Below are positions 58,490 through 60,824 of a stretch of 64,000 nt of DNA, piece by piece. The stretch is from Acetobacteraceae bacterium (GTDB lineage Bacteria; Pseudomonadota; Alphaproteobacteria; Acetobacterales; Acetobacteraceae): the NCBI GenBank assembly GCA_947474705.1, contig CANJJS010000017.1, forward strand, positions 1 to 64,000. The letters are read 5' to 3'. The notes beneath the pieces are model-generated. The model was not told the DNA's origin and ran no database searches. It saw only the letters and a list, made by a program, of their open reading frames with translations. The position numbers were made by a program, and so were the translations under genes. How positions within the stretch are numbered: the stretch's first letter is position 1; each line of letters begins with the position of its first letter.

Positions 58490-59254
58490 ATGTCCCAACC
58501 CGCCCCCCGGACGTTTCTTGTCACCGGCGCCGCCAGCGGCATTGGCGCCGCGATTTGTCGCGCCGTCGCCGCGCCCAATGTCGCGCTGCTGATCCACACC
58601 CGCCGCAACCGCGACGGCGCCGAGGCCGTGGCCCGGACCGCGCGGGCGGCCGGGGCGGAGACGGAGGTTGTGCTGGCGGACCTCGTTGAACCCGCGGCGG
58701 CCGGCGTTCTGGTCGAACGGGCGCTGGCGCGGTTCGGGCGGCTGGATGTGCTGGTGTCCAACGCGGGATTCGCGGACCGGACGCCGGTCGCGGCGTTGAC
58801 GGACGCGGCGATGACGGCGTCGATGGAGGCGATTCAAGGAGCATTCTTTCGACTCGCGCGCGCGGCTATTCCACATTTACGGGCCGGAATCGATCCGCGC
58901 GTGGTCGCGGTGTCCAGTTTCGTCGCCCACACCTGGCGGACGAATGTCGCGACGTTTCCCGCCTCCGCGGCGGCGAAGGCGGGGTTGGAGGCGCTGGTGC
59001 GCGCGCTGGCGGTCGAACTGGGCCCGGACCGCGTGGCGGTCAACGCGGTGGTGCCGGGGTTCATTCGCAAGGACAGCGGCGCGCACCGGGCGATCGGTCC
59101 GGCGGCGCTCGCCGATCAGACCGTCCATATCCCGATGGGGCGGATTGGGTTACCGGAGGATGTGGCGGCGGCGGTGGCGTTTTTGGCCTCGCCCGCCGCC
59201 GGTTACATCACGGGACAGACCTTGCATGTCGATGGCGGGATCGTCATGCGATAG
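58490..59254 (+). CDS. SDR family oxidoreductase
   Basis: FLVTGAASGIGAAICRAV; NAVVPGFI; PEDVAAAVAFLASPAAGYITGQTLHVDGG. Confidence 0.94.
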   Translation: MSQPAPRTFLVTGAASGIGAAICRAVAAPNVALLIHTRRNRDGAEAVARTARAAGAETEVVLADLVEPAAAGVLVERALARFGRLDVLVSNAGFADRTPVAALTDAAMTASMEAIQGAFFRLARAAIPHLRAGIDPRVVAVSSFVAHTWRTNVATFPASAAAKAGLEALVRALAVELGPDRVAVNAVVPGFIRKDSGAHRAIGPAALADQTVHIPMGRIGLPEDVAAAVAFLASPAAGYITGQTLHVDGGIVMR

Positions 59255-59275: not shown

Positions 59276-60824
59276 TCACCGCGCCGCCCCGCCGATCGCC
59301 CGCGTTTGGGCATCCACCGTTTGGGCGGTCCCGGCGATCCGGGACAGCCGGTTTTCGATATCCTTGCGGCGGTTCACATCGACGCCAGCCCAGTCGACGG
59401 CCGGGGTGAGGGTGACGAGGACGGGGTTCTGGGACAGGCCGGTCAGGCTGGTGCGCGCCAGTTTCAGGCGCAGCGCCATGCCCGGCAGCGTGCGCTCGCC
59501 GTCGATCCAGAGCGCGGTGGCGGCGACGAAGGCGGGTTTGTTGGAACGCACGAGGCGCCAGCCATGGGCTGAGGCGCCTGCTTCGTCGGCCAAAGGTGTT
59601 TCGGTGATATCGTCGGCGTCCGGCGCGCGTGTCAGGCGGCGGCGGGCGGTGTTGATCGGCGCGGCGGTGGCGCGGCGGGAGAAGACGTCGACGCGGACCG
59701 TCAGGGGCAGCCCGCCGCAGACGACTCGTTGCGAGAGGGCGGTGTCCTCGGCCCCGGGGATCGGGCTGGCGGGCCCGCTCGCGACGCAGGCCGGGCCAAG
59801 GTCGATCGGGCGCAGGACCCCGGCGGCGATGCTGGGGGGCGCGTTGAACCCGGCGACGGCGAGCGGTCCCATGGCGGCGAGCGCGGCGGTGGCGAGGCCC
59901 GCGATCAGACCCCGGCGGGCGAGATTCGGCGTGGGGATCATGGGCGGGCCGGCCGCGGCCTCGGGCAAGGTGTCCTCGCGGAATGGCAGGCCAAGGAAGG
60001 TCAGCAGCAGAATGACGAAGGAGAAGAAGAGCCAGCCATAGACCAGGTGGTCGGCCGCGGCGGCTTCGGCGCTGCCCATGACGTGGCCGAGCCAGACGAT
60101 GCCAAGGGCGCGGATGCCGTTGGCGACGATGGGGACGGCGATCGAGACCGCGACGAAGGCCGCGCGCCGGACCGGGCTCCGGTACATCAGGATGGCATAG
60201 AGGGCGCCGAAGGCGATGGAGGCGATAAGGAAGCGCAGCCCGGCGCAGGCTTCCGCGACGTAGAACACGCCTTCCGGGATTTCGATGATGTAGCCGTCGA
60301 TATAGGCGGGAAAGCCAAGGAAGCCGACGCCGATCGCGATGAACCAGGCGGTGATGTCCTGCAGCCGGGGGGTCAGGAACTCGCCGAAGGGGACGAGGAA
60401 ATACAGATAGAGCAGGGGACCCAGGACGGCGCGGAACAGGCGGGGGCCGAGCATGGCGAGGCACAGGACCTCGAAGAAGCTGACGACCGCGAGTTGGCGT
60501 CCTTCCATGATGCCCAGACGCTCGGCGGCGAGCCAGGCGGCGGCGGCGGGCAGCGCGAGGAGGGCGGCGGCGGGGCAGGGGGCGGCGGCCAGGCCGCGCA
60601 GCGCGGGGCTGCGGTCCCAGATCAGATAGAGCGCGATCGGGATGACCAGGGCGCAGTGGTTATAGGCCGTGGAGTCGATCCAGGTGCGGACGGCGGCGCC
60701 GATTTCGGCCGGGAACAGGATGGCGATGGCGGCGGTGCCGATGGCGAGTCCAGCCCAGGCGCCGCGCAGCGCGGCGATGGTCTGGTGCGGGGGGGGGGGC
60801 GTGCGTGGCCGCGGATTCGCTCAT
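59276..60824 (-). CDS. xrtA: Exosortase A-like protein fused to EpsI-type C-terminal domain; reading frame interrupted at C11 tract
   Basis: Exosortase core with Cys/Arg/His (EACAGLRFL, ANGIRALGIVWLGH, ADHLVYGWLFF). Exosortase-like frame stays open upstream of the tracked ATG at 60508 to the poly-C. ATG at 60824 overlaps the upstream gene stop (ATGA) but is out of frame with C11. Confidence 0.85.
60789..60799 (-). repeat. Homopolymer: C11 on the coding strand, within the exosortase 5' coding region
   Basis: 11 consecutive G on the + strand. Confidence 0.97.

Follow-up and report, generated by a model that had tools for sequence, protein, structure and literature searches.

Homopolymeric contingency loci are best known from host-associated bacteria, and poly-C or poly-G versions are known in coding regions of Neisseria and Campylobacter. 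Other bases serve as well. In Listeria inlA and Bacillus swrA, the 5' contingency tract is poly-A, and poly-A/T, not poly-C/G, was found to be generally enriched (PMC2831843).

Two further described systems bear on the locus presented here. The XrtA/PEP-CTERM exosortase (EpsH) system (PMC1569441) resembles it in the matches to TIGR03109 and TIGR02602, the Cys/Arg/His motifs, the exopolysaccharide cluster, and the many PEP-CTERM genes in the genome, but in the assembly analyzed here, the start and the body of the exosortase gene are in different phases. A slippery homopolymer that separates two parts of one gene is also a feature of programmed frameshifting and transcriptional slippage sites (PMC5009743); unlike these sites, the exosortase tract has no stimulatory structure and is unconserved in relatives.

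Here, we describe a candidate poly-C contingency locus on an unreported target, an exosortase, in an uncultured relative of Rhodopila, a free-living, high-GC alphaproteobacterium of the Acetobacteraceae. A literature search combining exosortases with phase variation or frameshifting returned nothing relevant at the level of titles and abstracts, and no case of an exosortase under homopolymer control. The locus shares with homopolymeric contingency loci a long 5' homopolymer in a surface-related gene, a frame set by plus or minus one base, and an otherwise intact gene. It differs from the known examples in that its tract is unconserved in the genus, the host is free-living and high in GC, the target is a protein-sorting enzyme, and the locus is known here from the sequence of one assembly. 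If C11 is genuine and can revert, slippage by a single base would jointly switch the sorting of about 44 proteins of the cell surface, and homopolymeric contingency loci would gain a new target outside host-associated bacteria. The locus also carries a caution: draft genomes can show key single-copy genes as broken at such tracts.

The Exosortase Gene and Its Cluster

The exosortase A frame (XrtA, with a C-terminal extension) lies on the minus strand of the 64 kb window (the whole stretch of DNA analyzed, 64,000 nucleotides), at 59276..60820, and consists of 514 codons and a stop. Its identity, proposed in an earlier note on this DNA, is confirmed by a score of 283 bits against TIGR03109, covering model positions 3-260 of 261 (cut-off 208). 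The protein also matches TIGR02602 and carries the conserved Cys/Arg/His motifs of the membrane domain, namely EACAGLRF, NGIRA, and DHLVYGW, at frame residues 190, 234, and 257, respectively. Codon use is coding-like, and there is no second break over the 514 codons.

Three neighbors on the minus strand belong to the same system: a PEP-CTERM/XrtA system glycosyltransferase (TIGR03087; 60821..62053; 466 bits, cut-off 317), a FemAB family XrtA/PEP-CTERM system protein (TIGR03019; 62046..63074; 452 bits, cut-off 260), and an XrtA system polysaccharide deacetylase (TIGR03006; 63086..63964; 408 bits, cut-off 276). Two further open reading frames on the same strand, judged by eye only to be AAA-type ATPase-like and outer-membrane protein-like, lie just past the window edge. 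On the other side, a convergent SDR-like open reading frame (58490-59254) adjoins the 3' end of the exosortase. The exosortase is thus the final gene of a predicted XrtA/PEP-CTERM exopolysaccharide cluster, and, because it is the last gene before the convergent frame, a frame break in it should have no obvious polar effect. It is also the only exosortase match found in the genome, which contains 44 PEP-CTERM matches (PF07589), so that the sorting of PEP-CTERM proteins is indeed at stake, as previously suggested.

Reading Frames at the 5' End

The exosortase start codon (ATG, 60822..60824, minus strand) has a Shine-Dalgarno sequence, GGAG, just upstream and overlaps the glycosyltransferase stop codon (TGA, 60823-60821) to form ATGA. 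From this ATG, the frame reads MSESAATHAPPP and then enters a homopolymer of exactly 11 C (60789..60799, minus strand), located in codons 9-12 counted from ATG 60824, that shifts reading into a frame with a stop after 54 codons. As assembled, the frame occupies 60660..60824, and its translation (MSESAATHAPPPAPDHRRAARRLG...) reaches a stop at 60660. The exosortase frame itself is offset from this start by one base. Scanning it from 60820 to 59276 for ATG, GTG, and TTG found none 5' of the ATG at 60506..60508, which corresponds to residue 105 of the frame and is without a Shine-Dalgarno sequence. The earlier note had described the ATGA overlap, the frame offset, the missing alternative start, and the placement of the homopolymer, and the sequence bears out each of them. 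To this account, we add that the glycosyltransferase and the exosortase share one frame, with a single TGA between them.

The tract is the sole C or G run longer than eight in the window, where Markov models of order 2-5 predict 0.003-0.04 runs of at least 11 (for C or G, each) per 64 kb. Its length also exceeds the roughly eight or more bases, in a coding region or promoter, that are expected of a homopolymeric contingency locus. The nearest congener, a Baikal-deep-G65 MAG (L002) with ~65% protein identity, has the N-terminus MSERAAEIGDAPLVRILAALRDAWVGLAIG, which parallels MSESAATHAPPP followed by IAALRGAWAGLAIG; on this comparison, the two segments in the window are halves of one gene. Since translation from the real start stops after 54 codons, little or no full-length exosortase is expected from the assembled sequence. 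Computed from the frames, a single-base change in tract length would swap the full-length product for the truncated one, and vice versa.

The explanation that we favor, and hold with middling confidence, is that C11 is real, that it predominated among the sequenced cells as a product of slippage in a recent tract, and that it represents one position of a reversible, potential OFF/ON switch. Under this explanation, the C tract would have arisen recently in this lineage, and slipped-strand mispairing would have brought it to C11. Because tracts this long slip often, C11 is probably the OFF length, with an intact ATG and a downstream coding sequence shifted by one base, and in-phase lengths would arise and return. 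A reversible state would be expected, since such a tract should gain and lose bases at high frequency. The OFF state would entail lost sorting of about 44 PEP-CTERM proteins, together with the loss of linked exopolysaccharide functions. The position of the tract, directly after a start with a Shine-Dalgarno sequence, is the classic placement and speaks for a candidate switch.

A real C11 could also be rescued in every cell by recoding, through ribosomal +1 slippage, RNA polymerase slippage, UGA readthrough, or initiation at 60508, which we regard as highly improbable. Proline CCC codons are known to permit +1 slippage in certain contexts (PMC5009743), readthrough of the single TGA would join the glycosyltransferase and exosortase in their common frame, and the form starting at 60508 retains the Cys, Arg, and His motifs, scoring 218 bits against TIGR03109 (model positions 87-260 only; cut-off 208). 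However, this shorter form, besides its start without a Shine-Dalgarno sequence, would be short of 104 membrane-domain residues, no stimulatory RNA fold is associated with the tract (z = -0.22), and no congener conserves the tract and its frame break. A programmed recoding site was rejected for the latter two reasons.

Comparison with Congeners

We compared 29 congeneric exosortase loci, from one genome per species with no same-species strains among them; the 5' end was readable in 28. All 28 have an intact in-frame start, and none has a C or G run longer than six at the exosortase 5' end. The cultured congener Rhodopila globiformis DSM 161 has an intact exosortase gene. A genus-wide conserved tract in exosortase genes was rejected on these grounds, and the tract is best regarded as new to this lineage rather than as a conserved switch. 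Contingency tracts that are kept and recur in related lineages make a supporting rather than a strictly defining criterion, and these congeners, which are other species and not strains, show no such recurrence. The missing tract in the 28 congeners is a point against the favored explanation. The phase-variation switch proposed in the earlier note therefore survives in part: the anatomy, the frame offset, and the other out-of-phase long tracts described below agree with it, but related species have no homopolymer. That note had named related strains without a homopolymer as grounds for refutation; what we found is related species without one, the nearest at ~65% protein identity and thus not a strain.

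The same lack of conservation would fit an ordinary, recent slippage loss at a neutral tract, with a real C11 in a gene that is being lost, or in a minority mutant, and with no switching role. Similar tracts occur in ordinary genes of the relatives (by eye, uvrC, rnd, degP, and a phosphopantetheinyl transferase), and the break by the same means of cheA in this genome suggests general slippage. Most long C tracts of the relatives fall between genes or leave the frame of ordinary genes undisturbed, which counts against the favored explanation and makes neutral slippage a strong rival. Nonetheless, we consider neutral loss quite unlikely: the remaining 500 codons are intact, the 44 PEP-CTERM genes and the other genes of the cluster are retained, and C11 stays revertible whatever its origin. 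Along the same lines, MutS and MutL are both intact in the genome, so a mutator lineage was rejected as the source of the slippage.

Other Long C and G Tracts in the Genome

The genome contains 40 C or G runs of at least nine bases, and five of at least 11 away from contig ends. An automatic coding classifier missed one tract discussed below (L093), and all long runs were then rescanned, selected ones by eye. Besides the exosortase, three genes, namely cheA, a PEP-CTERM substrate, and a membrane protein, lose their frame at long C tracts. This brings the genes so affected to at least four, including two from the PEP-CTERM system.

The cheA gene has a C11 run (G000:C47:18015-18025; L084:2001-2011) within the proline-rich linker that follows the Hpt domain, with the two halves in different frames. 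The halves share one frame in 29/29 relatives, where the longest linker run is seven, and other cheA matches in this genome are weak only. The best cheA match comes in two pieces in two relatives, at G015:C167:70890-72735 (overlapping pieces) and G005:C70:155047-157246; additional frame breaks or faulty assembly may account for this. The PEP-CTERM gene has a C14 run at its 5' end (G000:C88:10857-10870; L093:2001-2014), located 25 codons past an ATG with a Shine-Dalgarno sequence and directly before a signal-peptide-like start. The coding sequence downstream, whose protein ends VPEPASMVLFGSGLLGLAASRRRKAV, is out of phase with the upstream ATG. The membrane-protein-like gene, present in about half of the genus, has a C10 run at about codon 13 (G000:C54:14123-14132; L086:2001-2010), beyond which the frame no longer matches that of the apparent ATG. 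Of the remaining long runs, a C13 (contig C8) and a G14 (contig C2) fall outside clear coding sequence.

Taking a total of 5000 genes, the probability of finding a PEP-CTERM gene among the three additional out-of-phase genes is about 0.026, a post hoc figure. Several poly-C contingency loci could operate at once, so that sorting and chemotaxis would vary randomly between cells through the only exosortase (about 44 substrates), one PEP-CTERM substrate, and cheA; this broader proposal is doubtful.

Assembly Quality and Base Calling

The breaks at long tracts also raise the alternative that the earlier note rightly flagged as the main one: the extra C was introduced by sequencing, PCR, or assembly, and the cell carries an in-phase gene that is permanently on. 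We judge this possible, if on the unlikely side. The genome is a draft of 205 contigs (99.3% complete, 3.2% contaminated) with an artefact-like 24-C run at a contig end. All coding tracts of at least 11 in this assembly (3/3) are out of phase, as random length errors often yield, and three or four breaks, all at the longest tracts of a single draft, would also be expected from homopolymer length error, which weighs against the favored explanation. Illumina sequencing does produce some spurious homopolymer indels; however, the reported cases mainly concern tracts longer than 14 bases, the length beyond which such indels are said to increase (PMC8808543).

The behavior of shorter runs argues against error. 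Frame checks covering 230 kb of this assembly found the frame kept at 117/117 confidently coding C or G runs of 5-9, and the four apparent frame changes in the same 230 kb (three at C5, one at A6) are gene junctions. A generally error-ridden assembly is thus unsupported at runs of this length, and any error is confined to the longest tracts. Similarly, among the three coding runs with a length of exactly 10, two (L051 and the transposase-like gene L101) keep the frame. An isolated base-calling slip becomes less attractive because the PEP-CTERM substrate and cheA are likewise out of phase at long poly-C. Taken together, the clean shorter runs and the similar state of further long tracts, including the one in a substrate gene for the same enzyme, shift the balance modestly toward a real, slippage-prone tract at the exosortase.

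The 24-C run mentioned above (G000:C108:11-34; L096:11-34) is probably a sequencing or assembly artefact, and its position at a contig end suggests a short-read assembly.

Long Tracts across the Genus

For long tracts in general, the comparison set comprised 18 congeners. Each has a handful of C or G runs of at least 10, and these are mostly intergenic, for which reason long C tracts were rejected as a regular element of coding sequences in the genus. Most of those that fall within genes keep the frame, including the ones in genes identified by eye as degP, uvrC, and rnd. The genome studied here has a higher share of out-of-phase long tracts than the 18 congeners (4/14 vs 2/77, p about 0.005). 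Coding tracts of at least 10 cluster near gene starts, with 5/16 inside the first 16 codons (p about 0.0007 under uniform placement), a point for the favored explanation. Both figures are descriptive only because the tracts were hand-classified and the tests post hoc. The counts leave out two congener cases that came from rereading, one coding and in frame (L254) and one unclear (L240). The out-of-phase excess has two readings: real contingency loci, or an assembly that is less accurate at long tracts, the latter in line with an erroneous extra C in the exosortase.

The congeners contribute two out-of-phase cases. In one (L221, run 1200-1210; G003:C162), a C11 lies ~12 codons into a phosphopantetheinyl-transferase-like gene whose apparent ATG is in another frame; in the other (L256, run 1201-1210; G008:C126), a C10 has different coding frames on either side.
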